DNA of 64,000 nucleotides. Source: Rugalucina vietnamica (lineage: Eukaryota > Mollusca > Bivalvia > Lucinida > Lucinidae). The translations under genes were made by a program, and so were the position numbers. The stretch lies in the NCBI GenBank assembly GCA_964017185.1, contig OZ024869.1, positions 55,516,761-55,580,760 of the forward strand. The letters are read 5' to 3'. The notes under the pieces were generated by a model, which was given only the letters and a program-made list of their open reading frames with translations, had not been told where the DNA came from and made no database searches. Below, piece after piece: positions 1,581 through 55,111 of the stretch (position 1 is its first letter; the number at the start of each line of letters is the position of its first letter).

Positions 1581-1794
1581 GAGCCGTCTCGTGGGAAAAC
1601 CAACAATGTGGTTTCCGAACAGGTCCAACACAAACCGGACTGTACAGCCACAGATGACAGCTAGATGCTTGAAATTTCGGATTTAAGAAGAAGAGGGATT
1701 GTACTATCCGTGTAGCGAAAACAAAGGCGCTGATCAGCTTCGCAGTTACTTGTTTTCGCATATGCAGATTGTTGGTTTTCCCATGCGGCGGCTC
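1581..1794 (+). mobile_element. Palindromic MITE family A, copy 1
   Basis: First of fourteen copies in the window. Ends are inverted repeats starting GAGCC and ending GGCTC, followed inward by a GGAAAACCAACAA-type motif and its complement. The interior has a tract beginning GTCC.ACACAAAC and, in most copies, a large central hairpin. The insertion is flanked by ATTT on both sides (1577-1580, 1795-1798), which reads as a 4-bp target duplication. This copy has lost one arm of the central hairpin. It encodes no protein and must depend on a transposase elsewhere. Confidence 0.85.
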
Positions 1795-1993
1795 ATTTCA
1801 ATTCCTCAAGATTTATTGTCATCTAAAGACTACTCACTGGTTTTAAAGAAAAAAATCTTTCAAATCAAGTTTGCTGTCTAAAATTTAAGAGTTCGTAAAA
1901 AGTTCAATTTTAATTTTTATCATTTACATTTGGCACCTGTTGAATATATACTGTAAAATGTATGGCCTATCACCCAAACTTACAGAAGTCTTA

Positions 1994-2737
1994 AGTCCAA
2001 TTCGCATGCGCAAAAAATACACGCGTGTAAATATACTCCGGTGTGTATTTATACTCCGGTGTGCAAATCAACCTGAGAGTAAATTTAAATTGCGTTCGCA
2101 TGGGTTTTATCGCCAGGAGTATTTTTGTAGGTAAATTTATCATTTCTGGATTAAAACCTGTTCATTTAAGTTTTCTGTATTTGCAAAACAAGAAGAGGCT
2201 GCTTCAAGGTGTTCATGTAGACTTTGGCAGCAGAGGGGAATCATGGAATTGTCAGGCATAACCTTAGCAGTTATACAGTTCCCTTTAGTTTTTCATCCTT
2301 TCGCAAGGAATTACTATTAAAATGCCCCAAGAATCCTAACCAAGAATGATGAAGAAATAGTGTGGCTGTTGGCACTCCATATGTTTTAAAATGTCATGAA
2401 TGGCAATAAACTCTTATTTAGCAACCATGTCCACAGTTTCAGCAACTGTCATATAATCAGGAACAAAAAATGTGAAAACTTGATATCTAAAAGCAGAATA
2501 TTGACTTGAAATAAAAATACTCATGGGTAAATTTTACTTTGCGTTCGCATGGGACATAATAGTAAATTTACATGTGTGTATTTGTAAAAATAAAATTTAC
2601 ATCTGGTCAGACCCAGGAGTAAATTTACCCATATGTAAATATACTCCGGTGTGTATTTGCGTTCGCATGCACCATTTACTTACCCTGAATAAAATTATAT
2701 TTACACGTGTGTATTTTTGGCGCATGCGAATTGGACT
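1994..2737. mobile_element. TTA-flanked inverted-repeat element (PIF/Harbinger-like MITE)
   Basis: Both ends carry the same inverted sequence, starting AGTCCAATTCGCATGCGC and continuing through an ATACACGCGTGTAAATAT-like motif, about 42 bp with few mismatches. TTA lies directly outside each end (1991-1993, 2738-2740). A 3-bp TTA duplication is typical of the PIF/Harbinger superfamily; that assignment is inference. A subterminal CTCCGGTGTGTATTT motif is repeated near both ends. The middle (about 2150-2500) resembles neither end and holds no usable open frame. Confidence 0.75.
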
Positions 2738-3213
2738 TTATTAGCTGTTTTAGAAAACACCAATATCATTTCAGTTTTCTTTGTATTTCTTCAACTTATA
2801 TGCAACAGGCAATGAAACAGTCACATATTAGTTGTTAACATTATACACAATTTAACCAAATTCAGTTCAGCAAGTCAGTCCATAAAATTATATGCAATTT
2901 TGCTGCTTATGGTAATTTGGTGTATATAATTTCTTATTTTCCCCCACAAAAAGTATTTTTATAGTTTAATATGATGAATAATATGTCAGTTACAGGCCTG
3001 TGGCGTAACCAAGTATATCTATGACCAAACAGTGGTATAATGAGGCAAAACCATACAGAAAATACAAGTATGAATTGGTATGCATTTTCATTGAACTTCA
3101 TTAAATTGTTGGGTACACCAGCTCAAAAGTGTATAGAGTAACATACAGTGTATATAGGTGGTAGATCTGGTTTTGCAATGTTATGATCCAATTTCAAAAC
3201 CTGTTATATATAT

Positions 3214-3432
3214 GAGCCGCCTCGTGGGAAAACCAACAATGTTGTTTCCGAACAGGCCCGACACAAACCGACCTGTACGGTAAGAGAAGCAGGCTAGAAG
3301 CTTTAAGTAGAAGAGGAATTGTAACTATCCGAGTAGCGAAAACAAAGGCGCTGATCAGCTTCGCAGTTACGAAGCTGATCTTCGCCTTTGTTTTCGCCTA
3401 TGCAGATTGTTGGTTTTCTCATGTGGCGGCTC
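3214..3432 (+). mobile_element. Palindromic MITE family A, copy 2
   Basis: Same orientation as copy 1, with GAGCCGCC / GGCGGCTC ends and flanking ATAT on both sides (3210-3213, 3433-3436). The central hairpin is partly collapsed: GCTTCGCAGTTACGAAGCTG retains a short stem. It lies just downstream of the last putative exon of the minus-strand gene. Confidence 0.85.
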
Positions 3433-3515
3433 ATATATACTCTAACATTCTTTCCCTATATAGATTCACTATCCTGCTGGGAATATGAATAAGGCTTGAA
3501 ATTGAAATAAAATCC

Positions 3516-3697
3516 TCATGCAAATGAAGATGAAAAATCACTGTTTAATTTCTTTAGTTCATACATACAACAGTTAAGTTGAGGACTCTGAAGCTGAGTG
3601 ACTTGTAACCATTTGACAAAATACTCAAGACTGAGCAGACTTCCTATGCTAGAAGTAATCTTAAAACTCTCTGATATGTGTTCCCATTTGCACTGAT
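3516..3697 (-). CDS. Candidate alternative last exon (soluble C-terminus) of the large minus-strand gene
   Basis: On the minus strand a strong acceptor (a T-rich tract ending CCTTTGCTTATAG) is followed by about 60 open codons and a TGA stop at 3518-3516. The frame enters in phase 1, so it can join the phase-1 donor at 7829 with the junction codon reading Asp. The peptide begins QCKWEHISESFK, contains SLLSLEYFVKWLQVTQL, and ends in a serine-rich SDFSSSFA. It has no transmembrane segment. The exon at 3881-3972 is also phase 1 and ends in its own stop, so the two would be mutually exclusive C-termini. The peptide is not recognised. The open frame is short enough that chance cannot be excluded. 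Confidence 0.45.
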
Positions 3698-3880
3698 CTA
3701 TAAGCAAAGGAAATAAAAAAATCTTGTAAAGTACAATGTACATGCAGTATAATTATGTTTTTCACGTTGCAACCATAAAAGAAGCATCAGCAGCATTAGG
3801 AAATACATCATGATGTATAATGGATGTTTCTTAACCCACAAAAAGATGGAAAACTTGACAGAAGACATGAAATACAAGCA

Positions 3881-3972
3881 TCATGATTTACACTGAGAAT
3901 GGGGGCATCTAGATAGCAAAAGTGAAACCAAAGCTAAAACCATTGCTAAAACCACAAGTCCAATACTGATCA
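3881..3972 (-). CDS. Candidate last exon encoding a C-terminal membrane anchor
   Basis: A very good acceptor on the minus strand (CCCCTTCTGCCTCACATTCAG) opens a phase-1 exon that runs 30 codons to TGA at 3883-3881. It encodes ISIGLVVLAMVLALVSLLL, an uninterrupted hydrophobic helix of about 19 residues, then a short polar tail SRCPHSQCKS. This is the layout of a tail-anchored membrane protein with about ten residues on the far side. It joins the phase-1 donor at 7829 with a Val junction codon. The segment is only 29 residues, so the call rests on the acceptor, phase match and hydrophobic pattern. Which membrane is used cannot be told from the sequence. Confidence 0.55.
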
Positions 3973-8907: not shown

Positions 8908-8911
8908 AAAT

Positions 8912-9145
8912 GAGCCATCACATGAGAAAACAAACAATGTGGTTTCCGAACAGGTCCAACACAAACCAAGCTATACAAGCATAGAAGATGGCTAGAGACT
9001 GGAAATTTTGGATTTAGAAAGAAGAGGCATTGTACTATCCCAGTAGCGAAAACAAAGGCACTGATCAGCTTCGCAGTAACTGCGAAGCTGATCTGTGCCT
9101 TTGTTTTCGCCTATGCAAATTGTTGGTTGTCCCATGAGACGGCTC
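8912..9145 (+). mobile_element. Palindromic MITE family A, copy 3
   Basis: Flanked by AAAT on both sides (8908-8911, 9146-9149). The central hairpin is complete, with stem arms GATCAGCTTCGCAGT and ACTGCGAAGCTGATC. Confidence 0.85.
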
Positions 9146-9149
9146 AAAT

Positions 9150-12662: not shown

Positions 12663-14406
12663 ATACTTTCAACATTATTATGCCAAAAACTTATTGCACC
12701 ACTATTCACATATGCACCAAATTGTTAAAGGTGTGAAAGTTTCTATTTGATGTATTATTTGTGAAGTAACAGAATTATGAAGTCGGCCAAATCTGGTTAA
12801 AATAAAGTGAGATTATTCAACGTCTATTATGACTGTTAATTCTACTTTTAAGCTGTAATTTAGCTTTCAAACATTATATGTTCTTTTTAAACAACACTTT
12901 GGTCAACCAAAGATTTAATTTTTTTATAAAATTTTCTCTGTATTTGAATAACGCTTTTGTTTTAAGGTCTGCATTTTATTTGTTTCTGTGACTTTTTGCT
13001 TGTCATCATTCTGTTTGATTTGTGGCTTAATGCACATGCCTGATAAATAACGACCACTTATAATGCTTCTATGCAAACTAACTCATTTAAGGATGTTCGC
13101 TGCCAATGAAAAAGTATTCAAACTTTTTTTCTAACCACTCTTTTTTGATTCCAAAATACAACACAAGACATTTGAAAACAAAATAAATATAGGGTAGTGT
13201 GCATTTTTTCAAGCTACAGGCCTCTGAATGAGACCTCTGAGCACCATGTTTTAAATTTGGTAAAATTAATTTAATTTATGATTCTTTGAAACATACCTGT
13301 CTTGAACAAAAATACACCTAGAATGCTTTCAAAAGTCATAATATTTACGCAGCGCAGACAATTTTGTACCAAAAGCATAGACAAATTTGCAACTTGGAGT
13401 GGATGACAAAATTTTACGATTCCTTTTCTAACCCTACCCCCATACTTGAAAAGTCGGAAAAAATCAATATTTTGAAATGTACCAAACCCATATTTGTTGA
13501 TTCAAACTTTTTCTTGTATTTTCACACAACATAGAACTTGGTAATATTGTTTGAATAAAAGAAAGAAATATATAGGGTAGTGAGCATATAAGAGAGAACC
13601 AACAGCTTGAAAATCGCCAATTTTCGGCCTTTTTTCGTCTGTTTTGTTTCTAAAAGCCCATTTCATAAAACCACCTTAAATTTTAAAACCAGCACACCAA
13701 AGACACAAAGAATGGCTTAGAAGACCATGTATACATACACTGCTGCTAAAATAAACATCGAACTAGTGCAATTAATTTGAAGATGTGTAGTGGAGATGGA
13801 AGTGACATGAATCCTGCACTTCCGGATACAAGCATGAAACTTGGCAGATATGTTCATAAGCATGAACTATTTGAAATTTTCTCGTTAGCCAATCAAAATT
13901 AATCCAATTTTCAAGATGGCGGCTCGAAAATCCAAGATGGCTGCCAAAATAAATATAAAATTAGAAAATGTTGTTCTAGTCAGTGAGAAAAAAGCTTAAT
14001 AATGCTGAAAATGACATTTCTGGATTATTTTCAAATAAATAAATATTTAAATGAGTCAATGTTGCCTTTGTGAGATTTTAGAAGGGGTCCACAATAGGGA
14101 AAAGTACGGAAATTTTGTCGAAATAGCTGTTTTGCAACAAAAACTCTTCTTATACTTAACTGAAACAAAACAATTCAATTGCTATTATTGCCTTTACTCA
14201 AGTCATGAATAACATAGTTTCAGTTTTAATGGGTACTGGAAATAAGGTCTAATTTAATTATGGGGTTGCTGATGGGAAAATTTGAAACTGATTAGAATTG
14301 GCTTTTATGCAGAATCATGCAGTTTTTAACCTTTACTGGGAAATATGAAATTTATAAGGCAAATACACTTTGCTCTGCACACACATTTTGATAATACACT
14401 ATTTCT

Positions 14407-19578: not shown

Positions 19579-21117
19579 AGAGGTCCAATGGTCCTGTAAA
19601 CGCTCACCTGAGACCTGAGATACATACAAATAAACTTGTTTGACTAGAATGGCAATATACATGTTATACATGTATATAACCCCAGGGCAGGGTCAGAGCA
19701 ACCACTGGAGTCAATTTCTTTTTTAAATCATAAAGATTCAGTCCATTTGCCAACTTACTGCAAGTTTTGCCCTTCAAATGACATTGTAACAATTTTCCCC
19801 ATTCAAATGAGTGGGCAAATTAAGTTGACTTTGCCGTAAAAAAGGTCAAGGTCATCCTAGGGTCATGATTTAAATAACTTTGTAGAGCTTCATTGCCTGA
19901 TGCTTCATGCCAAGTTTCAAAATCGTAGGTCTTCTGGTTATGGAGAAGAAGATTTTTAAAGGTTTCTGCTATTTATAGCCATGGCGGCCATCTTGGTCAT
20001 GTGACCTTGACCATTTATACAACTTTCATTCACTCTTCCTAAGAATGCTCCTAATAAAGTTTGGCTTTGATTTGCCAAGCGGTTTCAGAGAAGAAGATGT
20101 TTGAATATTATGGTCATACACATGTATATAGCCCCGGGGCAGGGGCAGACAACCCTCTGGGCCCAAAATATTTTCATAAACATAAATCTTCTGTCCATTT
20201 GCTCATTCCTAGCAAGTTTTTTGCTATTAAATGACATTTTCCTATTTTTTCCCATTCAAATGCATGGGCGGCCAAAGTTGACCATGCTGTAAAAAAGGTC
20301 AAGGTCATCCCAGGGTCATGATTTTTATACACTTTGTAGAGCTTCATTGCCTGATGCTTCATGCCAAGTTTCAAAATCATAGGCCTTCTGGTTATGGAGA
20401 AGAAGATTTTTAAAGATTTTTGCTATTTATAGCCATGGTGGCCATCTTGGTCATGTGACCTTGACCATTTATACAAACTTTCATTCATTCTTCCTAAGAA
20501 TGCTCCACATGAAGTTTGGTTTTGATTGGCCAAGTGGTTTCAAAGAAGATGTTTGAATATTATGGTCATACACATGTATATAGCCCCGGGGCAGGGGAAG
20601 ACAACCCCCTGGGCCCAAAATATTTTCATAAACATGAATATTCTGTCCATTTGCTCATTCCTGGCAAGTTTTTGCCATTAATTGACATTTTCCTATTTTT
20701 TTCCCATTCAAATGCATGGGCGGCCTAAGTTGACCTTGCCGTAAAAAAGGTCAAGGTCATCCCAGGGTCATGATTTATACAAACTTTGTAGAGCTCTATT
20801 GCCTGATGCTTCATGCCAAGTTTCAAAATCATAGGCCGTCTGGTTCTGGAGAAGAAGACTTTTAAAGGTTTTTGCTATTTATAGCCATGGTGGCCATCTT
20901 GGCCATGTGACCTTGACCATTTATACAAACTTTTGTTCCCCCTTCCTAAGGATGCTCCACATGAAGTTTGGCTTTGATTGGCCTAGCGGTTTCAGAGGAG
21001 AAGATCTTTGAAATTGTGGACGACGGACGGACGCCGGACGGACGACGGACGCCGACGGACGCCGGAGCATGGGTATACTATAAGCTCACCTGTGAGCCTT
21101 CGGCTCAGGTGAGCTAA
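19579..21117 (+). repeat. Large dispersed repeat with about 452-bp tandem monomers
   Basis: The block starts near CCAGAGGTCCAATGGTCCTG and ends with a GCTCACCTGTGAGCC / GGCTCAGGTGAGC hairpin just after a GGACGGACG-rich tract. Inside, about three monomers repeat with a spacing near 452 bp, each carrying ATAGCCCC.GGGCAGGG, GTCAAGGTCATCC.AGGGTCA and GGTGGCCATCTTGG motifs. A related block occupies 36562-38714. Similar repeats with this terminal hairpin are common in bivalve genomes (from memory, not checked). Its short open frames are not genes. Confidence 0.8.
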
Positions 21118-24592: not shown

Positions 24593-24596
24593 ATAT

Positions 24597-24830
24597 GAGC
24601 CTGTGCATGAGAAAACCAACAATTTGCATATGCGAAAACAAAGGCGCAGACCAGCTTCGCGGTAACCGCGAAGCTGATCAGCGCCTTTGTTTTCGCTACA
24701 CGGATAGTACAATTCCTCTTCTTCTTAAATCCGAAAGTGCAAGTCTCTAGCCTGCTTCTGTGACTGTACAGGCTGGTTTGTGTCGGGCCTGGTCGGAACC
24801 CAAATTGTTGGTTTTCTCACGCACAGGCTC
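24597..24830 (-). mobile_element. Palindromic MITE family A, copy 4
   Basis: Reverse orientation, flanked by ATAT on both sides (24593-24596, 24831-24834). The central stem reads GCTTCGCGGTAACCGCGAAGC, a paired change from the GCAG/CTGC form of other copies. Confidence 0.85.
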
Positions 24831-24834
24831 ATAT

Positions 24835-25904: not shown

Positions 25905-25908
25905 GAAT

Positions 25909-26133
25909 GAGCCACCTCATGGAAATACGGTTTTCGAACAGGTCCAACACAAACCGGCCTGTACAGTCACAGAAGCAGGCTAGAAGCTTGAAATTTTGGA
26001 TTTAAGAAGAAGAGGAAATGTACTATCCGTGTAGAGAAAACAAAGGCGCTGATCAGCTTCGCGGTCACTGCGAAGCTGATCTGTGCCTTTGTTTTTGCAT
26101 ATGCACATTGTTGGTTTTCTCATGGGGCCGCTC
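25909..26133 (+). mobile_element. Palindromic MITE family A, copy 5
   Basis: Forward orientation, flanks GAAT / AAAT, one mismatch from a perfect 4-bp duplication. It abuts the 28-bp minisatellite, and one reading frame of that satellite begins inside this copy. Confidence 0.8.
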
Positions 26134-26224
26134 AAATGACAGGGAATCTAACACATCACGAAAAGAGAAGCAACACCCTGAAAGAAACCAATCATTCTAC
26201 GAAGGGGAAGGAAAACCTAAGACA

Positions 26225-26850: not shown

Positions 26851-27479
26851 GAAGCAGTAATATCTGCAACTGAGAGAGAAGTAACACCCCTAGTAACACC
26901 ATGAAGGAATGAAATCTTTATCTGTAAATGAAACCCTATCTGAAGGGAAGCAATCTAGAAAAGACATGAAATCCTGTCTGGAACTGGGAAGTAAACTAGA
27001 GTCAGAATGTAAAAGTAACATACTAAATCTGAAGAAATGATTTCAAAGCTCAAATTTATATGGGCAAAAGGTGCACATAAAGGTGCACTATGTGCACTCC
27101 TCAATGTTTATGCAACAAAAAGCATAAGGGAAAGGGAAATCAAGTGTGCAAGCTTTGCAGTAAGACTGATCAAGTGAAATGAATCAAGCTAAAGTATTTG
27201 TTTGGTGATTGCCATACCCAGCAGCTGAATTATATAAAAGTAGCAAAGTCTTATTAATTCATATAACATTCAAAAGAATGTAAGAAACTGTAGGGTGTTG
27301 CAGTGCAGTTTACATGTGAAGTGCATCATAGGAAAATCTGGTTTTGGGTACAAATCAATATGTGGTAACTGACACAGCAACTTACTAAGCGCCCTTTTTA
27401 CAACAAAGTGGTTCTACAGATTGTCTTTGTCAGAAGTGGTCGCTGTCCTTGTGCAGCACACCATGATGAAACAAATTAT

Positions 27480-27720
27480 GAGCCACGTCATTAGAAAACC
27501 GGAATTTTGCCTATACGAAAACAAAGGCGCAGATCAGCTGTGCAGTAACTGCACAGCTGATCAGCTCCTTTGTTTTCGCTATACAGATTGTACAATTCCT
27601 CTTTTACTTAAATCCAAACTTTCAAGCTTCTAACTACATGTATTTTCAGTGACTGCACAGGCCGGTTTGTGTCAGACCTGGTCGGAAACCCCGAAGACCG
27701 GTTTTCACGCGTAGCGGCTC
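27480..27720 (-). mobile_element. Palindromic MITE family A, copy 6 (subfamily 2)
   Basis: The ends carry GAAAACCGG / CCGGTTTTC in place of the AACCAACAA motif. The hairpin reads GCTGTGCAGTAACTGCACAGC, a set of paired changes relative to subfamily 1. The flanks TTAT / AAAT do not match. Confidence 0.8.
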
Positions 27721-28248
27721 AAATGCGCCAAGGAATGGCTTAAGCCTCAGAATGACATATACCCAAATATAAAATTCATTCTATAAGAATATATGTGTTT
27801 TTGAAGGCTATTGTCAAAATTAGCTTAGAAAATAAGGACTAAACTAACAATTCCCAAAAGCTAAAACTCACTAAAAGTGGACTGACCACCTGAGCAAATG
27901 GGACCCTACTCATACTAAAAACATCTTATCAGGTTTGATATGTCATGATGCAGCTGACAGAAGTTGCAGAAACAGATGGCTTGACATTTACAAGAAAAGA
28001 TTATTCAACTTGTGTTACGTATGCAAAGCATGGTAAAAACACAACTTATTCCTAACACTGTGGCCCAAAGGGTCAGCAGTAGCTCCCTTGAAAGACAGAA
28101 ATCATGATAACTGTAACTGGACTAACTGGAATTAGGACCTCTTTAATAATTCAGTGCCAGTGAATATTCTTGGCATGAAACCTGGGGTCCATCAGTTTCT
28201 GCCTTAGGCGGCACAAATTGAACTGTGCAATTTAAACAACTGATGATA

Positions 28249-30756: not shown

Positions 30757-31153
30757 TTAAGTGTAAATATAATACCAGCATTGATACACACTCCTAAATT
30801 TAACTATGTATTATTGGTCAGTGCATCTGTAACACAAATTAAAGGGTCCATCATGGCATCTGTGACACTGAAAACACTGGGTCATGACATAATGTGTTTG
30901 AGACAGGGTTGGATTCAATTACTTTGATTTTTAATTACCCCAAGCCCGGTCCAAGATCCGTGGATCTGACACTTTCATTAAACAACTGGCTCAGAGTATC
31001 CCACACAAGCGATCAGAAAACCCTCGAGTGAACCAGCTAAATGTCTTACAGAACACGTCTTTGGCACCAGAAATAGTCCCAAGGACCAGAAACAGCCCAC
31101 TGGGCATCAAAAATAGTCCTAGAACTGAAAATCATACACAATTTACCAATTAA

Positions 31154-32097
31154 GGATGTTCGCTGCTAACATTTGACATTTCGGAACTTCCGGTTTTTCT
31201 TTTCTTGAATATCTCGTAAACGGTTGCAGATATTTTCCTAATATTTAATATTTGGATACATGTTGATAATATGCATTGAATGAGCCACGAAAATTGTCAA
31301 TCTAAGAAACTTCATTTTTTTACCCCATTTTTTGCAACTTTTCAGAAAATTTTAGTTGACAGTAAAATTTAGGGGGTAGGGTAGATTAAACTTGAATATT
31401 ACACATCTTCAAATGAATTGCACTAGTTCGATGTTAATTTTAACAGCAGTATATGTGTACATGGTCTTCTAAGTCATTCGTTGTGTCTTTGGTGTGCTGG
31501 TTTTAAGATTTTAGGTGGTTTTATGAAATGGGCTTTTAGAAACAAAACAGCCGAAGAAAGGCTGAAAATGGCGATTTTCAAGTTGTTGGCTCTCTCTTAT
31601 ATGCTCACTACCCTATATATTTCTTTCTTTTATTCAAACAACATTACCAAGTTCTATGTTCTGTGAAAATACAAGAAAAAGTTTGAATCAGCAAATACGG
31701 GTTTGGCACATTTCAAAATATTGATTTTTTCCGACTTTTCAAGTATGGGGGTAGGGTTGGAAAAGGAATCGTAAAATTTTGTCATCCACTTCAAGTTGCA
31801 AATTTTTCTATGCTTTTGGTCCAAAATAGTAAGCGTTACATAAATATTATGACTTTTGAAAGCATTCTAAGTGTATTTTTGTTTAAGACAAATATGTTTC
31901 AAAGAATTAAAAATGAAATTGATTTTACCAAATTTAAAACATGGTGCTCAGAGGTCTCATTCAGAGGCCTGTAGCTTGAAAAAATGCACACTACCCTATA
32001 TTTATTTTGTTTTCAAATGTCTTGCGTTGTATTTTGGAATTAAAAAAGAGTGGTTAGAAAAAAAGTTTGAATACTTTTTCATTGGCAGCGAACATCC
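31154..32097. mobile_element. TTAA-flanked transposon, copy 3 (complete)
   Basis: 944 bp, same orientation as copy 2 and about 400 bp away, with TTAA at 31150-31153 and 32098-32101. It is closely similar throughout to copy 2, apart from small indels and that copy's 63-bp duplication. There is no coding capacity. Confidence 0.9.
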
Positions 32098-32810
32098 TTA
32101 AAACCATCATCCGGTATTGAAAATGACGGAGTGGCTGACCACCAATGAAAGACAATTTCAACAACGATGACGAAGGTCATTTATATAGAAAAGAAAAACA
32201 GCCTTAACAGAATATATAAACAGCAGTGTGTTTGAGCTACCTATTATCATTTATTATTTATTTACCATAATAAGATCAAAGGAACGTGTACATGTTTACG
32301 ACCAAACATGGTCATAATGTGGCCATAACATCATACTTAACCATGTCCACTTTATCATTATGGGCACCATGCTCCAATTATCATATAGACCACCACAAAG
32401 AAATGTCACCATGCTTTAGAACAGACTATTCCCAAAAGACTTGAAAGCGATTAAATAAGTTTTGATGGAATTCATGAGCTGCCAACAGAGAAATTATGAT
32501 TTTATTCCATTCTAAGCTTTCACAGAGCAGATTTTCATAACATATAATACGCAACAGCTAGTGGAAAAACAAATGTTAGTAACCCCCAACAGAATGATTA
32601 TACTGCAAGTCATCACTGGGGATCATTTTCATTTCAAATAAAGTTCTGTAAGTTTTCCTCTATTTCAACTATGTCTTTCATATGGGTATATTCCCACGTA
32701 GGCAACAGCACTGACATTCAATCTTATTTTTTATTTCAACTTAATTTTATGTTCAGAGAAGTCACTAAGTTTACTTTATATTGTAAGAAATTTTCTCTAG
32801 CATTAAATAT

Positions 32811-33042
32811 GAGCCGCCTCGTGGGAAAACCAACAATGTGGTTTCCGAACAGGTCCGACACAAACTGACCTGTAGTCACAGAAAAGAGCTAGAAGCTTGA
32901 AATTTCGGATTTAAGTAGGAGAGGAATTGTATTATCCGAGCAGCGAAAACAAAGGCGCTGATCAGCTTCGCAGTTACTGCGAAGCTGATCTGCGCCTTTG
33001 TTTTCGCCTATGCAGATTGTTGGTTTTCCCATGGGGCGGCTC
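32811..33042 (+). mobile_element. Palindromic MITE family A, copy 7
   Basis: A near-consensus forward copy flanked by ATAT on both sides (32807-32810, 33043-33046). The ends are GAGCCGCCTCGTGGGAAAAC and its near-complement. The hairpin arms are GATCAGCTTCGCAGT / ACTGCGAAGCTGATC. Confidence 0.9.
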
Positions 33043-33842
33043 ATATGATACATGAAGATGACTTCGTACAATGTCAACATCCGCGATGACAAATGGTCAA
33101 CTCCGTTAAATGACAGAAAAAGTGATATTTTATATCCTTAATGACACTGAAACGACATGTTAACGTCCCACATTCACTAGTCAGAGGAAACTATCATTAA
33201 CGCTAATTATTCTGACAATGTACAAAATTAAACATTAAAGTCGCGGAAAACGTGGTCAGTTTCATGTATACTCCCGTGTTTGTTGTCTACAAATATAACA
33301 TCCTACAAGTCTGAACGCCCACTATATAACTTGGTACTATCTGTTAATAAAGTTTCCGACAACAATGTTTGCTTATGTAGTGCCATGAGTATTTAGCGAT
33401 CACCTGTTAGATTTGCTTACCCAACTTATTACACAGGTGATAACTACTTTACCATTGCTGGGACCTACGAGGTTCTCCACAACAAACTCAAATATTGTAT
33501 AAAGTTTGATTCCAAAAAATTAATCTGCGACACAAAAACTCTACCCTTTAATCATCCTGAGTTATAATGTGTGTCTGTGGGAAGAAATTAATGACAGAAT
33601 GGACAACTCAATGGCAAATGGGGCAGACATACGCCAGACTAACGCCCTACCGTGCACAAAATCTTTGGAAAATATTAAATGGCACTGATTCCAATGATCA
33701 GCCAAACATACTCATACATGTAATTACCAAGTTAAGGGAATGCAACATGGTTGTCCACCAAAAATACTTGATCAAGATTTTATTTTATTATATGGCAAGT
33801 GATGAAATATAGAGAAATATGTATTAAATATAACCAATATTT

Positions 33843-36561: not shown

Positions 36562-38714
36562 GAACCAGAGGACCATTGGTCCTGAGAACGCTCACCTGAA
36601 GCCTGATCCTGCAGTATTAAGTCATCATGAAATGACCTTGACCTTGAATACTCACACACCTTTATTGAATTCATAAGTTGTCTGCATCTGCAAAGTTTCA
36701 GGTCTCAGGCTGCAATAGTTTCCAAACCCAGTGATTTATGAGAAAACCACAATTTTAATTTTGATATTTAAATGACTTTGGGTCAAGGTCAAGAAATGAC
36801 CTTGGCCTTCATTAATTACTTACCTTCATTGACTCCATTGGTTGTCTGCATCTAGCAACTTCCAGGTCTCAGACTGCAACAGTTTCCAAAATATCCATTG
36901 TTTCCGCCTTTTCCCATGTAAAAGCCTATGTTTCCAAAATTGACCTTGCCGTAAAATAGGTCAAGGTCATCATAGGGTCATCATTTGATCAAACTAGGAT
37001 GGGCTGGAGTCCCAAATGCTACATACCAAGTTTCGCAAAAATTGGCCTGCCGGTTCTGGAGAAGAAAACTTTTGAGTGGTTTTTACCATATATGGGCGTG
37101 GCGGCCATCTTGGTAATGTGACCTGGATTTCGCGATCAAACTTTCGTCTCCCCTACCCATGGATGCTCCACATAAAATTTCACTTTGATTGGCCCAGCAG
37201 TTTCAGAGAAGAAGATCTTTGAAAAGTGTGTATGGACAACAGACTGGCCAAGGTCAAGAGATGACCTTGACCTACATTAATCATAAACCTTTATCTACTC
37301 CATTGGTTGTTTGCATCTAATACTTTTCAGGCATCAGGCTGAAATAGTTTTCAAAAAATCCATAGTTTTCACTTTTTCCCATGTAAAAGCCTATGTTTCC
37401 AAATTTGACCTTGCCGTAAATTAGGTCAAGGTCATCCAAGGGTCATCATTTTATCAAAATATGATGGGCTGAATTCCATGATGCTACATACCAAGTTTCG
37501 TGGAAATCGGCCAACCGGTTCTGGAGAAGAAAATTTTTGAGTGGTTTTTACCATATATGGGCGTGGCAGCCATCTTGGTCACGTGACCTGGATTTCGCGA
37601 TTAAACTTTTGTCTCCCCTACCCATGGATGCTCCACATAAAATTTCACTTTGATTGGCCCAGCAGTTTCAGAGAAGAAGATCTTTGAAAAGTGTGTATGG
37701 ACAACAGACTGGCCAAGGTCAAGAGATGACCTTGACCTACATTAATCACATACCTTCATCTACTCCATTAGTTGTTTGCATCTACCACTTTTCAGGCATC
37801 AGGCTGCAATAGTTTTCAAAAAATCCATAGTTTTCACTTTTTCCCATGTTAAAGCCTATGTTTCCAAAATTGACCTTGCCGTAAATTAGGTCAAGGTCAT
37901 CCTAGGGTCATCATTTTATCAAACTATGATGGGCTGGAGTCCCAAATGCTACATACCAAGTTTCATGAAAATCAGCCTGCCGGTTCTGGAGAAGAAGATT
38001 TTTGAGTGGTTTTTACCATATATGGGCGTGGCAGCCATCTTGGTCATGTGACCTGGATTTCGCAATCAAACTTTCGTCTCCCCTACCCATGGATGCTCCA
38101 CATAAAATTTCACTTGGATTGGCCAAGCAGTTTCAGAGAAGATCTTTGAAAAGTGTGAATGGACGACAGACTGGCCAAGGTCAAGAGATGACCTTGACCT
38201 AAAATTAATCACATACCTTCATCTACTCAATTAGTTGTTTGCATCTACCACTTTTCAGGCCTCAGGCTGCAATAGTTTTCAAAAAATCCATCGTTTTCAC
38301 TTTTTCCCATGTAAAAGCCTATGTTTCCAAATTTGACCTTGCCGTAAAATAGGTCAAGGTCATCCAAGGGTCATCATTTTATCAAACTATGATGGGCTGA
38401 AGTCCCTGATGCTACATACCAAGTTTCGTGGAAATCGACCCACCGGTTCTGGAGAAGAAGATTTTTGAAGGGTTTTTACCATATATGGGCGCGGCGGCCA
38501 TCTTGGTCATGTGACCTGGATTTCGCGATCAAACTTGAAATGCCACTACCCAAGGAGGCTCCACATAAAATTTCAACTAGATCGGCCAAGCGGTTTCAGA
38601 GAAGAAGATCTTTGAAATTGTGGACGACGACGACGACGGACGGACGACGGACGGACGCCGGATCATGGCCATCCTATAAGCTCACCTTGTGAGCCTTCGG
38701 CTCAGGTGAGCTAA
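36562..38714 (+). repeat. Large dispersed repeat with about 465-bp tandem monomers
   Basis: A relative of 19579-21117. It starts ACCAGAGGACCATTGGTCCT and ends with a GGACGACGGACGG tract and the GGCTCAGGTGAGCT hairpin. About four monomers repeat every 464-465 bp (for example GGCCAAGGTCAAGAGATGAC near 37250, 37714 and 38178). Each monomer has ATATGGGCG.GGC.GCCATCTTG and GTCTCCCCTACCCATGGATG. Short frames in it are repeat-derived. Confidence 0.85.
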
Positions 38715-38742
38715 AAAGCATTGTTCCAGGTACTTATTACAT

Positions 38743-38974
38743 GAGCCACTGCATAAGAAAACCAACAATCTGCATATGCGAAAACAAAGGTGCAGACCAG
38801 CTTCCAGGTAACCACGAAGCTGATCAGCGCCTTTGTTTTTGCATCATAGATAGTACAATCCCTCTTCTTCCTTCATCCGAAATTTGAAGCTTCTAGCTGT
38901 CATCTGTGACTGTACATGCTGGTTTGTGTTAGACCTGGTCGGAACCCAAATTGTTGGTTTTCTCACACACTCTC
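38743..38974 (-). mobile_element. Palindromic MITE family A, copy 8
   Basis: Reverse orientation, inserted 29 bp from the end of the 465-bp repeat block. ACAT is on both sides (38739-38742, 38975-38978). The outer right end has decayed to TCTC, and the hairpin has lost a pair. Confidence 0.8.
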
Positions 38975-38978
38975 ACAT

Positions 38979-42320: not shown

Positions 42321-42324
42321 ATAT

Positions 42325-42550
42325 GAGCCCCGACACGAGAAAACCGGTCTTCAGGATTTCCCATCATGTCCGACACAAACCGGCTTGTACAGTCTCAGAA
42401 GAAAGCTAGATTTATATTCAAGTAGAAGAGAACTTGTACTATCCAAGTAGCGAAAACAAAGGCACTGATCAGCTGTGCAGCTACTGCACAGCCGATCTGC
42501 TCCTTTGTTTTCGCATAGGCAAAAAATCAGGTTTTCTCAAGACGCGGCTC
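42325..42550 (+). mobile_element. Palindromic MITE family A, copy 9 (subfamily 2)
   Basis: Forward copy with GAAAACCGGTCTTC near the left end and GATCAGCTGTGCAGCTACTG / CAGTAGCTGCACAG-type hairpin arms. The flanks are ATAT / ATCT. Confidence 0.8.
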
Positions 42551-43109
42551 ATCTGTTGTTCACAAATCTATTGACATTTTGAAAGTAACAAGTTTCTGTG
42601 AAAAGTTTTGAAAAGTTTAGAGAGTCATTGACATCTCAGTGGACATCATCCTACATACATAGCATAAAGTCAAGCTGGTCAATATCCAGCATTTTTACAA
42701 ATGTTACAGCATACAGATATATTTTGAAAAGTCTATCATGACATATACCACAAAAGATGAGTTGCAGTCATTATCACAGATGTAATGGTTTTGTTGATTA
42801 GTACCATCATATTTAAATCAAACAGAATTCTCCTTAATTTTGCTGCAAAAAATCTTGTGGCAAAGTTACAGTTTAAAATCACAGTGCATTATCAAGATTG
42901 GTGACACATAAAGGCATGTAACGGTGCATTTGAAAATCCAGACTCATTCTAGACAAATTGGACCCAATGGCAATTCCTTATTTAGACATAAAACTTGGAA
43001 AATTTACAAAAGGTTTGTGGCAAAATATATGACACAACTTCCAGCTAATGTAAGTGGTAACATATTTCATCACACCTACAGGCCCTTTGTACATGGAAAA
43101 TATCAATAT

Positions 43110-43275
43110 TGATTGAATTGGTACTTTACATCCCAACAACAATGGTCATGTCGGACGTTGCCTCCATTTCATGAGACTTTTACCCAACATTAGGATGTCA
43201 TGACACTCAAAATGCACTTCATAAATTTAACCACCCAAGCAAACCAATAAGGTTTATATTGTATGTATGGATGGC
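43110..43275 (+). repeat. Dispersed repeat (TCCCAGTCAACAGC family)
   Basis: Aligns by eye with 22745-22910: ACATCCCAACAACAATGGTC, GTCGGACGTTGCCTCCATTT, GACTTTTACCCA, AACCACCCAAGC, GTATGTATGGATGGCTTGAC. The class is unknown. Confidence 0.5.
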
Positions 43276-43299
43276 TTGACTAAACCACTTTTCCTGAGC

Positions 43300-44070
43300 C
43301 TGCTGAGACTATAGTGTACTGAAGTCCCAATCTCATACTAAAGTGTACTGAAGTCCAAATCTCAGTCTATAGTGTACTGAAGTTCCAATCTCAGTCTATA
43401 GTGTACTGAAGTTCCAATCTCAGTCTATAGTGTACTGAAGTCCAAATCTCAGTCTATAGTGTACTGAAGTCCTAATCTCAGTCTATAGTGTACTGAAGTT
43501 ACAATCTCAGTCTATAGTGTACTGAAGTTCCAATCTCAGTCTATAATGTACTGAAGCTCTAATCTCAGACTATAGTGTACTGAAGTTCCAATCTCAGTCT
43601 AAAGTGTACTGAAGTCCTAATCTCAGTCTATAGTGTACTGAAGTCATAATCTTAGACTATAGTGTACTGAAATCCTAATCTCAGACTATAGTGTACTGAA
43701 GTCCTAATCTCAGTCTATAGTGTACTGAAGTCCTAATCTCAGACTATAGTGTACTGAAGTCCTAATCTCAGACTATAGTGTACTGAAGTTCCAATTTCAG
43801 ATTATAGTGTACTGAAGTCCTAATCTCAGACCATAATGTACTGAAGTTCCAATCTCAGATTATAGTGTAATGAAGTTCCAATCTCAGATTATAGTGTACT
43901 GAAGTTCCAATCTCAGATTATAGTGTACTGAAGTCCTAATCTCAGACTATAGTGTACTGAAGTCCTAATCTCAGTCTATAGTGTACTGAAGTCCTAATCT
44001 CAGTCTATAATGTACTGAAGTTCCAATCTCAGACTATAGTGTACTGAACCTCCAATCTGAGACTAGTTTA
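43300..44070 (+). repeat. 29-bp minisatellite
   Basis: About 26 head-to-tail units close to CTATAGTGTACTGAAGTCCT plus AATCTCAGA (29 bp). Variants alternate (GTTCCAATCTCAG versus GTCCTAATCTCAG, and ACTATAG versus TCTATAG). The array has no unique spacers, so it is not a CRISPR array. Decayed copies continue to about 44185, where the broken LINE ORF1 begins. Confidence 0.95.
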
Positions 44071-44189
44071 CTTCGGTCTCAGAAAACAATGAAATGATGT
44101 ACCAAACTCAGACTATAGTGTACTGATCAGACTACATTGTACTGAAGTCATAATCTCATCAGACTACAGTGTACTGAAGTCCCAATTGC

Positions 44190-45095
44190 AGCAGACAACA
44201 ATCATGCCGTCACGCGAGAATGTATCTTTTATCAGACCAGCTTTCTTAAGCAGCCTGGTTTTGTAGTGGAGCTTATTTCTAGCTTTTGTTAGGTCTTCAC
44301 GGATAAATAATTTATTCTGATCATCTCTATGTTTATTATCCTCTCTGAGTTTCTCCATGGGATCTTTTGTTAGAATTTTTGCCTTTGATTTGTAGGACAC
44401 AAATTTCACTATGATATCTGCAGGTTTGTCAGGGACTTTACCATGTTTAGTATTTGTCTTAGGTCTATTTAGTCTATGGCATCTGTCAATGTCAGTTGGT
44501 TCAATAGGGGAAGCAACAAGATCATTTATAATATTGCATATTTGGGTTTCAGTTGATGTCTCACTATTGTCAGGCACTCCAGAGATGATGATATTGTTTC
44601 GTCTCGAATATTGTTCGAGATCATCACAGCGCTGAGTTGATGTTCGCAGTTCATCTTTGAGTTCATGAACAGCAGATGTTAGATCTTTAACTGTACTAAC
44701 CAGTGTGGCTTTAGGCTCCTCAGACTCTGCATTTTCCATAGGTTCACTAAGAGCAGCAGAGTGAATTTCACTAGATTTGATAGCTTCAACCACTTTCTGG
44801 ATTAGCTTATCTTGAATGCTGGGAATCTCAAAGAGTTGTGATATAAAGTTATCAAGTAGTTTTTCATTTTTTGTGAGACAGGTGAATATGCTGTCTCATT
44901 TTTTGTGAGACAGGTGAATATGCTGTCTATCAGTTGTTTTGGGTCCAGATCTATCATTTCAGTTTCATCGTCATCTTCGGCATGACCCTCGCTCTCCCTT
45001 TGTCGTTTAGGGGTTGGTTTATCTGTCGCTCTGCTGAACGATGATGCGGATGCTGGGGTAGATTTCCCCCCTCGGCCCTTCCCTTTTGGAGCCAT
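44190..45095 (-). pseudogene. Broken non-LTR retrotransposon ORF1
   Basis: Minus-strand frame starting MAPKGKGRGGKSTP, with a charged, low-complexity N-terminus followed by a coiled-coil-like stretch (TVKDLTSAVHELKDEL). Next come DDLEQYSRRNNIIISGVPD and FIREDLTKARNKL..TRLLKKAG, which are signatures of LINE ORF1 proteins with an RRM-like RNA-binding core. It is broken twice: a 32-bp tandem duplication (44864-44927) shifts the frame, and the 3' end stops at SRDGMIVV where the 29-bp minisatellite begins, so ORF2 is absent. About 350 bp of possible 5' UTR lie at 45096-45470. Confidence 0.8.
44864..44927. repeat. 32-bp tandem duplication disrupting ORF1
   Basis: Two apparently identical copies of a 32-bp unit starting TCATTTTTTGTGAGACAGGT (44864-44895, 44896-44927). 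Thirty-two is not a multiple of 3, which accounts for the frameshift between the two halves of ORF1. Confidence 0.95.
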
Positions 45096-45910: not shown

Positions 45911-46289
45911 AGAGTTATGAAGTATTTGCTTGCCATTATTTTCCACTAAATTAAACAGCATCACATAAAACAAGAAATGTTTAATCCAGTTTAAATTTCC
46001 TGAAATTCATTTTCACATCAAAGCCACATCCATATTCATAGCCCGCATTCATAGTCTGTTCAGATCCTGCCTCTTGCAACATACTGTGGGAACTTTCTGT
46101 AGCTATCCAGATTCTGTGGGGTAATCCAAACCACTCGTAGATAATTTGCAGACACAATTGAGAGGCCTATTAATGATAACAGTGCAACAGATGCAACTTA
46201 TCCTGATAACAATGTTGTCTAAGCATTATTCCATTGTTTGTTTACATACACAACACTACAGGGCTGGATCAGCGGTCAAATACCTATAT

Positions 46290-46509
46290 GAGCCGCCACA
46301 TGGAAAACCAACATTTTGCATAGGCGAAAACAAAACTGCGAAGCTGATCAGCGCCTTTGTTGTCGCTACACGGACAGTACAGTTCCTCTGCTACTTAAAT
46401 CCGAAATTTCAAACTTTTAGCTCTTTTCTGTGACTCACTCACTAACAACAGGTCGGTTTGTGTCGGACCTGATTGGAAACCATTTGTTGGTATTCCCACG
46501 AGGCGGCTC
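46290..46509 (-). mobile_element. Palindromic MITE family A, copy 10
   Basis: Reverse copy with ATAT on both sides (46286-46289, 46510-46513). One arm of the central hairpin is deleted, as in copy 1. Confidence 0.85.
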
Positions 46510-46938
46510 ATATACACAGTTTGAGAATATTCCACTTTACGGCCTTTCAGCCATAAACATAGAAAATAACACTTCAAATAAATGATAGAATGACCCATAA
46601 AATAAATTTAAATAAGGTATGCTATGTATGTCAGTCTAGTCAGTCCTAAGTTTGCCAACAGTTTAATTGATTTATTTCTATGTGCTAATTAAGGATATGA
46701 TTAATTAACACTATTTAATAAGCATACATCACACAAGTGTATATGCTAACTTAAAATGACCAAACAGCAATGGTAGCCATCATCTATCCTTTTTTGGATA
46801 TTCTTTGTGAATAATGCAAGACATTTTTGTAAATATGCACATCAAGTTTTGTCATAAGCATGAGGCTCTAAATAAGCATCACCGCTTCTCTTCTAATCCT
46901 ACATATTTCTAGTTCGACCAAAGTCTGTACATTCTAAT

Positions 46939-47174
46939 GAGCCACGTCATAAGAAAACGAACATTTTGCATTATGCAAAGACAAAGGCGCAGATCAGCTT
47001 CGCGGTAACCGCGAAGCTGATCAGCGCCTTTGTTTTAACTACACGGATAGTACAATCCATCTGCTTCTTAAATCCAAAATTCCAAACCTCAAGCTTTCTT
47101 CTCTGACTGTGCATACCGATTTGTGTCAGGCCATGTCGGAAACCCCAAAGACCGGTTTTCTTGTGTCGCTGCTT
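46939..47174 (-). mobile_element. Palindromic MITE family A, copy 11 (subfamily 2)
   Basis: Reverse copy with a GAGCCACG left end and decayed right end (GCTT). The hairpin GCTTCGCGGTAACCGCGAAGC matches copy 4. The flanks do not match. Confidence 0.75.
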
Positions 47175-47860
47175 ATATTTTTAGTATCCAGAACTGGGTC
47201 AGGTAAATATTTACAATCTCAATCTCCTTTGAACTGTAGGTAAGGTAGTATATATTTTATGAATTTTATAACATTATATATCATCCCCATTAAACATCAG
47301 AAAATATTAACATTGGCACCAGTGGAGTCAATAAAACATAATTAACCTGACATAAAAATAACAAAAGTCCTTGGAATAAGAAAACCCATACATCATCAGA
47401 AAGGAAACCCTCCATAAATACATGCACAAATTAAATGCATTTATAAAATTATCATGCACAAATTAAATGCATTTATAAAATTATAATGACACTTTTTAGA
47501 TTCAGTTAATCACTGATCTTTTAAGTTGGAATTTTTTATTTATTTTTTTTTTTTACATCAAAATACTGCAAATATTTTCCCTGGTTCCATAAAAAATTGG
47601 CACCAAATCAGGCCAATATTATTTTCTATCAACCTCCATGAAATACCAGTAATAATGTGATGCTGTGAAATGATTAGAAAATTAATCATAATTTACAGAA
47701 AACTCATTTATCATATTGATATCAACTATTTGTACAAATGCAATATTGTGCAGTGAAATAAACAGTCAGTGCTAGCTGTTGAGAATTGGAATGGTTTCGG
47801 CTGGTGGTTGTGTTCGTGTTTTATGTCCCATTCCAGCTATGATCATTGAATCTTAGTCCT
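47175..47860. other. Non-coding stretch with a 32-bp tandem duplication
   Basis: AT-rich DNA. A 32-bp unit (CATGCACAAATTAAATGCAT plus TTATAAAATTAT) occurs twice in tandem at 47421-47484. Near 47800 is a fragment of the GTTTTATGTCCCA repeat. No gene is supported. Confidence 0.6.
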
Positions 47861-51280: not shown

Positions 51281-51299
51281 ACTTCATTTAAAACTTAAG

Positions 51300-51916: not shown

Positions 51917-52046
51917 CTTACTATGTGAAACTATCCAGCATCCCCAAACAAATAGTGGCTATAATAGCACTGTCTTCTACAGACTTTGAGTATTTTATCT
52001 AAATTACTAATGTCAACCTAAAGTGAACTGACCTCTGTATCTAAAT

Positions 52047-52280
52047 GAGCCGCCACATGGGAAAACCAACAATCTGCCTAGGCGAAAACAAAGGCGCAGA
52101 TCAGCTTCGCAGTAACTGCGAAGCTGATCAGCGCCATTGTTTTCGCTACTCGGATAGTACAATTCCTCTTCTACTTAAATACGAAATTTCAAGCTTTTAG
52201 CTCTTTTCTGTGACTGTACAGGTCGGTTTGTGTCGGCCCTGGTCGGAAACCACATTGTTGGTTTTCCCACGAGGTGGCTC
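52047..52280 (-). mobile_element. Palindromic MITE family A, copy 12
   Basis: Reverse copy, near-consensus, with AAAT on both sides (52043-52046, 52281-52284). The hairpin arms GATCAGCTTCGCAGT / ACTGCGAAGCTGATC are intact. Confidence 0.9.
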
Positions 52281-52507
52281 AAATATTGCCCACATGAGGG
52301 TAAACATTGGGATATGTGGACATGGAACAAAAGTCCAAGCAGAAAGAGTAATCAAGGGACAACATATCAAATGTGAGTTGCAAGTTGTGAGCTGAAAGCT
52401 GTGAGTTGCAAGTTACAACTGCCAATTTATAGACTCACTCAATTCTCTAGGTAGGTCTACCAAGGCAGGTTAAACCATAGAATCAAAACCTTTGTGTCTC
52501 TATGTGT

Positions 52508-52718: not shown

Positions 52719-53391
52719 GTCATGGGTGTACAGGATGAGTTTACAATGGCCTATTTGTCCAAAATGTTTGGACCTCTATGGTAAATATATGACTGTTGAC
52801 CACTAGACAAACATTTCTCATGCACTTTCTAAATATTATAATTTTCTAGTACCAACACCTATTTAAGAAAGCAAACAAGTTGGTTTAACAACCCAACAAT
52901 GTTATTTCCATGACAAAAGAGTTTTCTTGATTGTCATATTTGTTTTCCTCAATCAGACATCAAGGGCTCTATAAAACTAGCAAAGTTTGCTGAAAAGATT
53001 AAAAAGATTCAATTGTAGAAATTAGAAAGTGTATGGTCAAACAAACACTGGTCTCTATATGTATTTATGTCTAGTGCCTTCGTTGACTTACTACACATTT
53101 CAGTAATGATTAAGTGTTTGTTTATTTTGTGGATTAACTTCCCAGTTAACAATTTTCAGTCATGTTGGGATCAATGGAGCCACCCACTTCCTTGATTCTA
53201 GCCATGACTATGAAGATAATGTTAGATCAGTTGTACAAAGCTTCACTGTTGTTTTCACTACTTAGACGGCACACTCCATCTTCTTACTGAATCTAAAGTT
53301 TCAATCTTCTGTGGCTGTTTTTGTCAAACATGGTTGGAAATTCAAGTTTTTATACATTTTTTTAGCAATTTTACAGTATACCAGTACATAC

Positions 53392-53419
53392 CTGCATCCT
53401 CCTTTCTTGGTCCCTCATT
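53392..53419 (-). CDS. Candidate 28-nt cassette exon, possible poison exon
   Basis: Both splice sites are strong on the minus strand: acceptor AAGATTTTGTCTGTTTCAG and donor GATGCAG|GTATGT. The 28 nt between start AATGAGGG. Spliced after the phase-2 donor at 55754 the junction codon becomes TGA, an immediate stop. Read in phase 0 it gives NEGPRKEDA but then leaves in phase 1, which does not fit the exon at 51916. It could be a nonsense-decay cassette, part of an alternative path, or a chance pair of splice sites. Confidence 0.4.
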
Positions 53420-53453
53420 CTGAAACAGACAAAATCTTAGATAATGAACATTT

Positions 53454-53687
53454 GAGCCACTGCATAAGAAAACCAAAATTTTGCATATGCGAAAACAAAG
53501 GTGCAGATAAGCTTCACATTAACTGTGAAGCTGATCAGTGCCTTTGTTTTAGCTTCACAGATAGTAAAATTCCTCTACTTTCTAAATCCAAAATTTCCAA
53601 GCTCTAGCCATCTGCTGTAGCTGCATAGGCTGGTTGGTGTTGGACCTGTTCGGAAACCACATTGTTGGTTTTCTCACGACGCAGATC
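53454..53687 (-). mobile_element. Palindromic MITE family A, copy 13
   Basis: Reverse copy flanked by ATTT on both sides (53450-53453, 53688-53691), inserted 34 bp upstream (minus strand) of the 28-nt candidate exon. The hairpin reads AAGCTTCACATTAACTGTGAAGCT, with further paired changes. Confidence 0.85.
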
Positions 53688-54872
53688 ATTTATTTTTTAA
53701 ATTCCCTGCATAATGCAAAGAATTGTAAGGAAATGAATTATGCATTCTTGCAGAGATTTAAGTCTAAAGGAAGTTGAATCATAAGTGTTGATCAGCTGCA
53801 CCTTTATCTTGCTGCTGATCTCAATACACCTTCATTTCCCTGCGCAAAAGGCAGGCTACATGTAGCTCATAAAGCCAACTTTTTGTACCTTCACTTGCAA
53901 ATATTTTTCACTCAAAATGTCCTTACTTCAAGTTTCTAGAAAAATTCTGAGGTCTGTCTGTGTTCACATAGTTGGCTGCCTTCAGCTACCGCTTACCCAC
54001 CCACTACTGCCACAGGGATACCAGACTGGTTAGATTCAATGGGGGCTAGGCCTAAAATGATCTCAGACCAGCCAAAACAACCAAAGCATGCACCAATTCA
54101 AGGGAGGCTACTAGAATACAACTTTATCTATCAGGATGGCAAGATTTGTCTTTATTAAAAATTCTGTATCATATGAATAAAACATGGGATCATTCAGTCT
54201 TTGGTAGCTTGATCATGATAAACAAAATGTTTTAAATTATAGCTGATCTTTAATGGATTAGACAGATGCTTTAATCTTAAAATCTGTAATGCCCCTTAAT
54301 CCGCTTCCACCTTTTAACCTTTCTATCTTATTGCACTTAATCTTTCACTTTTAACCAAAGTTAATGAACTGATAAAAATAAATTAATGATTATTTTCCCT
54401 TTCTTTGTTCATGTGTTTAGGGTAACCCTATTTCACAACATACTTGAAATCCCATTAATGTGTGACATAAGACATTAAAAGAGCAAAATTAATTCTATTT
54501 TGGTACATTTAACAATATTTTGTCTAATCTTCCATGATGTAAATAAAGACCAACAGAGGAAGTATTTTTACAAGGTCTTGTATATCAAAACCTTTGTCAA
54601 TAGAAAGTGTTAAAGCCTCCTCACACATTAGTGAAAGTCCCTTGACTTGCATAAAAAATATGAATCTGTCATGTTTCATGTGTTGCGATTCCTGGACAAA
54701 ATCATTATCCTTCGTGTTTTTTTCTCGTTTAAAAATAAATATTATAACACACTTTCAAAACCTTTGACCAGAAATCGCAAAACATGACAGATTTACCCAC
54801 CACACGAGTCTGTGTCGAGGGACTTTCGCTAATGTATGACAAGGCCTTTAACCACTTCTTGCCCATCACTAT

Positions 54873-55111
54873 GAGCTGCGTCATGAGAAAACCAGATTAT
54901 TGCCTAGGCAAAAGCAAAGGCGCAGATCAGCTGTGCAGTAACTGCACAGCTGATCAGCACCTTTGATTTTGCTAATCAGATAGTACAATATCTCTTCTTC
55001 TTAAATTCAAAATTTCAAGCTTGTAGTCTTCTTGCCTTCTTTCTGTGACTATACAGGTTTTGTCAGACCTGGTTGGAAACCTAGAAGACCTGTTTTCTCA
55101 CGTCGCGGCTC
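54873..55111 (-). mobile_element. Palindromic MITE family A, copy 14 (subfamily 2)
   Basis: Reverse copy with GAGCTGCG left end and CGCGGCTC right end. The hairpin is GATCAGCTGTGCAGTAACTG / CACAGCTGATC. The flanks CTAT / ATAT match at three of four positions. Confidence 0.8.

Follow-up and report, generated by a model that had tools for sequence, protein, structure and literature searches.

An abundant MITE of Rugalucina vietnamica with an unusually conserved internal palindrome, and the apparent covariation of its arms

Do the two arms of a transposon hairpin change together, and if they do, what keeps them paired? The question is raised by a stretch of 64,000 nucleotides from contig OZ024869.1 of the lucinid bivalve Rugalucina vietnamica (here, the window), in which a sequence-only reading recognized 14 copies of one miniature inverted-repeat transposable element (MITE). 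That reading held that substitutions in the central stem fall on both arms at once, so that pairing is kept while the sequence changes, and it pointed to selection on the fold or to arm-to-arm correction. We compared the window copies with a larger sample from the same genome. The element is a MITE present in large numbers, and its internal palindrome is conserved to an unusual degree. We consider it probable that this palindrome was conserved while the lineage was being mobilized and that its arms decay independently after insertion, the covariation being made up of founder variants, CpG changes, and a residue.

Changes in the two arms

In intact copies the palindrome spans 65 nt, consisting of two 32-nt arms and one central base (majority sequence GCGAAAACAAAGGCGCAGATCAGCTTCGCAGT-A-ACTGCGAAGCTGATCAGCGCCTTTGTTTTCGC), and the stem described earlier corresponds to pairs 2 to 10, counted from the tip, of this longer structure. 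Pair 16 is an A.A mismatch in all 12 of the window copies with both arms present at that position. Five folded palindromes have z scores of -6.3 to -13.6 with DNA parameters and a central loop of 3 to 5 nt; for that of copy c52042, the folding energy as single-stranded DNA is -35 kcal/mol (z of -13.6).

A search of the window with an nhmmer profile built from seven copies recovers 14 full copies of the element on both strands (180 to 274 bits) over the span originally given. The arm strings reported for the copies at 24597, 46939, 27480, 42325, 54873, and 53454 are likewise as described. The combination GCTTCGCAG/CTGCGAAGC, which had been assigned to most copies, is found with both strings in only 3 of the 14 (8906, 32805, and 52042); the remaining tips comprise two of the GCGG form, three of the GTGCAG form, one of the CACA form, and five without a paired 9-mer (1575, 3208, 25903, 38738, and 46285). 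Paired changes on both arms thus exist, but a paired 8- to 9-mer is present in just 9 of the 14 copies, and the other five had been omitted from the earlier account. Both sides have changed in 6 of the 32 pairs, a number reached by 7 of 500 shuffles. Parsimony on one tree requires 28 pair-breaking changes (27 of them terminal) against 7 compensated ones (4 terminal), and a second tree, built from the right part of the element alone, gives 28 and 9. Of the six compensated pairs, 3, 5, 6, 18, and 30 each changed by transition at a CpG that both arms mirror; for pair 3 this requires G-C to be the ancestral state.

The larger sample comprises 182 non-overlapping copies, defined as the best non-overlapping hits that span profile positions from 40 or below to 200 or above, with identical copies removed and with L002 and L010 excluded, which overlap the window. 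Pair counts use the 156 copies with both arms, the other 26 having more than four hairpin columns missing, and bases inserted relative to the 14-copy alignment were left out. These 156 are not a random draw: 87 were selected with queries from the element's right part (30, 30, and 27) and hence not for their hairpin, 7 by a query that includes the hairpin, and 62 without a query (21 from random stretches, 29 from the neighborhood of other hits, and 12 from the window). Since the profile used to excise every copy contains the hairpin, copies with a good hairpin may be favored. Palindromes lose material more often than other segments of the element, with gaps of at least 10 nt in the palindrome of 21 of the 182 copies versus 5, 3, and 9 in three equally long segments (two of them overlapping).

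Across the 28 pairs other than 3, 6, 7, and 16, we counted 282 one-sided changes, 9 two-sided changes that are unpaired, and 18 that are paired. Hence 291 of 309 changed cells are one-sided or unpaired: for the bulk of the changes, the outcome that the sequence-only reading had itself named beforehand as speaking against its claim is the one observed. At the 22 pairs that contain neither CpG nor subfamily variation, 165 changes are one-sided, paired doubles number 2 (2.4 expected from shuffles within age classes), and unpaired doubles number 4 (1.5 expected). We conclude that in a single copy each arm changes on its own, apart from a modest excess at the CpG dyads that this does not explain. 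In 155 of the 156 copies pair 16 is still A.A, so arm-to-arm correction is not general. Compensation above the null at many pairs, by which covariation in structured RNA is recognized, was not found among these copies; the excess is confined to pairs 3, 6, and 7 and the CpG dyads.

Low CpG content with an excess of TG and CA is the usual mark of methylation decay, and the window has an observed-to-expected CpG ratio of 0.49, with 1.29 for TG and 1.27 for CA. In the palindrome every CpG faces another CpG, so that two independent decays restore pairing half the time (TG/CA or CA/TG) and otherwise leave a mismatch (TG/TG or CA/CA). The hairpin CpG columns are also the most changeable, with 1.92 parsimony steps per column compared with 0.43 in other hairpin columns, whereas the ratio outside the hairpin is only about 2. 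By analogy, these changes resemble the CpG decay of methylated DNA, although paired doubles here lie somewhat above the half expected from independent decay.

Founder variants and conservation in mobile lineages

Three tip haplotypes account for 103 of the 156 copies: TTCGCAG/CTGCGAA (44), TTCGCGG/CCGCGAA (43), and TGTGCAG/CTGCACA (16). They differ by two founder variants, A-T or G-C at pair 3 and a change from CG and TA to TA and GC at pairs 6 and 7, both of which are paired. The left-only intermediate TGTGCAG/CTGCGAA occurs in 3 of the 156 copies, and no right-only intermediate was seen among the copies collected. Founder changes without a partner have also spread. A left G>A change at pair 20 is shared by 26 copies (23 A/C, 2 A/G, and 1 A-T), and a left A>C change at pair 26 is carried by 8 copies, all facing T and none paired.

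The arm-to-arm association is strong, with r2 of 0.92 at pair 3 and 0.81 at pair 7. We rejected it as special in itself, since short-range association is common across the element: r2 is at least 0.5 in 25 to 44% of column pairs that lie 3 to 16 bp apart outside the hairpin. The pair 3 variants occur with both classes of terminal repeat described below, the left base being A or G in 29 and 19 copies with class A ends and in 22 and 25 copies with class B ends. The tree calls for 24 changes at pair 3 and for just as many, 24, at the unpaired pair 20 site; the scattered pair 3 states were therefore rejected as proof of recurrent paired mutation. Contrasts across supported branches are few. Five are available at pair 3, where the right base changes in the same direction in an average of 4.4 of them and in the opposite direction in none; other pairs offer 2 or 3. 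We read the scatter of pair 3 as exchange between copies combined with a weakly resolved tree rather than repeated paired mutation.

We separated rare from shared changes and expressed non-CpG alleles per 1,000 cells. Over the 156 copies, rare alleles (those carried by four copies or fewer) number 17.9 in the hairpin, 19.6 in the left end, and 20.2 in the right part. The corresponding values for shared alleles are 13.8 (pair 3 columns excluded), 176, and 99. For shared alleles the 62 copies picked without a query give 41.8, 178, and 113 with pair 3 included, and the 21 copies from random stretches give 31.6, 153, and 106. For shared changes the hairpin thus falls short by a factor of 3 to 13, for rare ones by no more than 1.6, indicating that copy-producing lineages preserved the palindrome. 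This conservation fits selection on the palindrome while the lineage was mobile, acting on its sequence at least and perhaps on its fold.

The element, its ends, and its surroundings

Window copies are 216 to 243 bp long and end in TGAGCC...GGCTCA or a few close variants. None contains a stop-to-stop frame of at least 110 amino acids, and the three frames of that size at 1254-1664, 26006-26563, and 53266-53607 each extend into one copy. Random stretches totaling 120 kb contain 25 full copies, or 0.21 per kb, compared with 0.22 in the window. The window is therefore typical, and the genome (1.09 Gb in 47 contigs) should hold about 0.2 million copies by extrapolation. Short length, lack of coding capacity, terminal inverted repeats, a target duplication of fixed length, and high copy number identify the element as a MITE, a short non-coding DNA transposon. 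Known MITEs share these properties and likewise have founder variants common to many copies. Unlike them, the present element has an internal palindrome that is more conserved than its terminal repeats, and it makes a 2-bp W-rich duplication in an A|WW|T context that matches none of the three superfamily rules tested. Searches for relatives gave no match in a viral contig set and, in a genome contig set, a single bacterial contig on which the profile matches only 26 nt. Six strings of the element had no match in published text, and a literature search at the level of listings and abstract openings found no description of it.

Both ends were located in 99 of the 182 copies and not in the other 83. 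A 2-bp direct match flanks 79 of these 99, compared with 20.3 expected, and a 3-bp match flanks 1 of them (4.6 expected). In the window alone, a 2-bp duplication is present in 10 of 14 copies (4.0 expected). The 79 duplications include TA in 26, AA in 21, TT in 17, and AT in 7. An A at position -3 is seen in 95 of the 99 copies and a T at +3 in 97. Tc1/mariner elements make a strict TA duplication, PIF/Harbinger elements a 3-bp TWA duplication, and hAT elements a duplication of 8 bp. The element follows none of these rules: TA makes up only 26 of the 79 matching duplications, a 3-bp match occurs in 1 of 99 copies, and an 8-bp match occurs in none of the 99.

There are two classes of terminal repeat, and the left and right ends of a copy generally belong to the same one. 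Among the 111 copies called from short motifs on both sides (71 of the 182 are uncalled on one or both), 56 are A/A, 49 are B/B, and 6 are mixed, so that 105 match. Between the two ends, over distances above 200 bp, r2 reaches 0.81, while outside the hairpin column pairs 31 to 120 bp apart are mostly unassociated (mean r2 of 0.07 and 0.11). Besides exchange, allele frequency also influences r2. The ends appear to have to match within a copy, while the interiors, loosely associated with the ends, are exchanged.

Table 1. Copies of the element and their palindromes in the window
Feature	Coordinates	Strand	Remarks
Copy c1575	1580..1795	-	One hairpin arm mostly deleted (about 20 nt)
Copy c3208	3213..3433	-	One arm short by 3 nt
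Copy c8906	8911..9146	-	Tip GCTTCGCAG/CTGCGAAGC; pair 18 A-T
Palindrome of c8906	9046..9110	-	Counted from string positions; profile search agrees
Copy c24592	24596..24831	+	Tip GCTTCGCGG/CCGCGAAGC
Palindrome of c24592	24632..24696	+	Counted from string positions
Copy c25903	25908..26134	-	Pair 3 mismatch (A/C)
Copy c27475	27479..27721	+	Tip GCTGTGCAG/CTGCACAGC
Palindrome of c27475	27515..27579	+	String positions
Copy c32805	32810..33043	-	Tip GCTTCGCAG/CTGCGAAGC
Palindrome of c32805	32943..33007	-	Counted from string positions; profile search agrees
Copy c38738	38742..38977	+	Mismatches at stem pairs 4 and 5
Copy c42319	42324..42551	-	Tip GCTGTGCAG/CTGCACAGC
Copy c46285	46289..46510	+	One arm mostly deleted (about 20 nt)
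Copy c46934	46938..47175	+	Tip GCTTCGCGG/CCGCGAAGC; remaining sequence groups with GTGCAG copies
Copy c52042	52046..52281	+	Tip GCTTCGCAG/CTGCGAAGC
Palindrome of c52042	52082..52146	+	32-nt arms, one central base; A.A at pair 16, A/A at pair 22
Copy c53449	53453..53688	+	GCTTCACA/TGTGAAGC, mirrored CpG hit; pair 2 mismatch
Copy c54868	54872..55112	+	Tip GCTGTGCAG/CTGCACAGC; pair 30 A-T
Decayed partial copy	53238..53343	+	36.5 bits
Decayed partial copy	53770..53862	-	16.9 bits

The window also holds other repeats. A 28-bp tandem array (26120-26951) begins at the end of copy c25903, and a 29-bp array lies at 43187-44211. Related tandem units of about 465 bp (36781-38473) and 453 bp (19791-20996) share the motif AGGTCAAGGTCA. 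A repeat of 530 to 550 bp is present in three copies that are 94 to 97% alike (13084-13634, 30231-30763, and 31554-32102), the first in the opposite orientation. Two open reading frames on the reverse strand, at 44164-44895 (243 codons) and 61916-63625 (569 codons), have no Pfam match, and a PDB search with one of the two returned nothing. The former may resemble a LINE ORF1.

Weighing the explanations

Most likely, the palindrome would be a cis-acting part of the MITE that active lineages preserve and that erodes once a copy has inserted. The scarcity of shared changes indicates that it was kept during mobilization, and the reason may be a function in cis, for instance the binding of a protein or extrusion as a hairpin. 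Once inserted, a copy would decay with its two arms mutating independently, as seen at non-CpG pairs. The covariation would then have three sources: two founder variants near the tip, probably brought onto both end classes when copies recombined or converted one another; paired transitions at CpG sites mirrored in both arms; and a minor remainder, to which occasional copying of one arm onto the other may contribute.

Several observations weigh against this account. In the window, CpG-aware simulations of independent evolution on the 14-copy tree yield a mean of 1.9 to 2.3 both-side pairs (P = 0.002 to 0.012, the rate scale lying at the edge of the grid for one of the two root states), and P is 0.0003 to 0.0007 in simulations without a CpG effect. 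Pair 7, which changed from T-A to G-C, is not a CpG pair. Among the 156 copies, paired doubles at two CpG dyads (pairs 18-19 and 30-31) number 11 against 4.6 expected (P = 0.005); unpaired doubles there number 5 against 4.4, and the direct comparison of 11 to 5 is not significant (binomial, about 0.1). We therefore rejected chance alone and CpG decay alone as the source of the signal, since a residue remains in both the tree simulation and the 156-copy shuffle. Recurrent paired switching at pair 3 may also have occurred, on a tree that is noisy, as the equal scatter of pair 20 shows. Rare alleles are not perfectly even either, with 16.8, 20.4, and 26.5 per 1,000 cells in the hairpin, left end, and right part of the 62 copies picked without a query, and 31.6, 51.4, and 42.2 in the 21 from random stretches. 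Some constraint or repair in single copies is thus possible, and this unevenness between hairpin and rest slightly lowered our confidence. Finally, in an old copy at L012:1863-2034 (92 bits), which is not in the final set, its match reaching no further than profile position 174, the right arm matches the left by eye at pairs 13, 16, 18, 20, and 30. Both arms deviate from the family at these pairs except at pair 16, where the family mismatch is healed. The palindrome of this copy is nearly perfect, and its right arm seems to have been rewritten from the left. The CpG doubles and this copy may leave room for rare correction.

The two mechanisms offered by the sequence-only reading retain part of their footing, in that two tip founder variants are paired and the palindrome is conserved, while general correction is unsupported. 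If the folded hairpin were selected in mobile lineages, a change in one arm would lower mobility until the other arm compensated, which is partly compatible with a palindrome kept for mobilization and left to decay. The tight arm-to-arm association of the two commonest founder variants, conservation at the founder level, and the presence of left-only but no right-only tip intermediates argue for such selection. Against these stand the unpaired founder changes that spread at pairs 20 and 26, the retained A.A mismatch, the need for just two paired founder events, and the comparable short-range association elsewhere in the element; we regard fold selection as possible but doubtful. Under arm-to-arm correction, one arm would serve as template for the other through conversion or template switching inside the palindrome. 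The four mirrored substitutions at pairs 6 and 7 would then be one event, and the excess of paired CpG doubles and the L012 copy are consistent with it. Template switching that perfects hairpins is described for RNA genes (PMC8794818). By analogy, switching would convert one-arm changes into matched two-arm ones, several at once, and would explain both L012:1863-2034 and the cluster at pairs 6 and 7. In the present element, however, most arm changes are unmatched and a fixed mismatch is unrepaired. The shared change at pair 20 also stands uncorrected in 23 copies, the 22 plain pairs have no excess of compensation, and the inverted loop GTTAC is found in 4 of 156 copies versus 137 with GTAAC, which makes correction an improbable general cause.

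A function of the hairpin as RNA, as a microRNA-like precursor or an editing substrate, would seem very improbable. The hairpin is strong in the five palindromes folded, but its central loop is short, the copies decay, and the window has no Rfam match at gathering score. A more speculative proposal, tentative and in our view rather unlikely, is that the palindrome is an obligatory structural signal for mobilization whose sequence and pairing active lineages would both maintain, with the coupled tip variants being the only escapes, supplied by rare arm copying, and that the two end classes have to match while interiors are exchanged freely.

The wider lesson is that covariation in repeat copies can mislead, as shared descent and CpG decay within a palindrome mimic compensation. 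Separating founder-level from later changes provides a usable test of which part of a MITE matters for movement, and by this test the internal palindrome ranks ahead of the terminal repeats.

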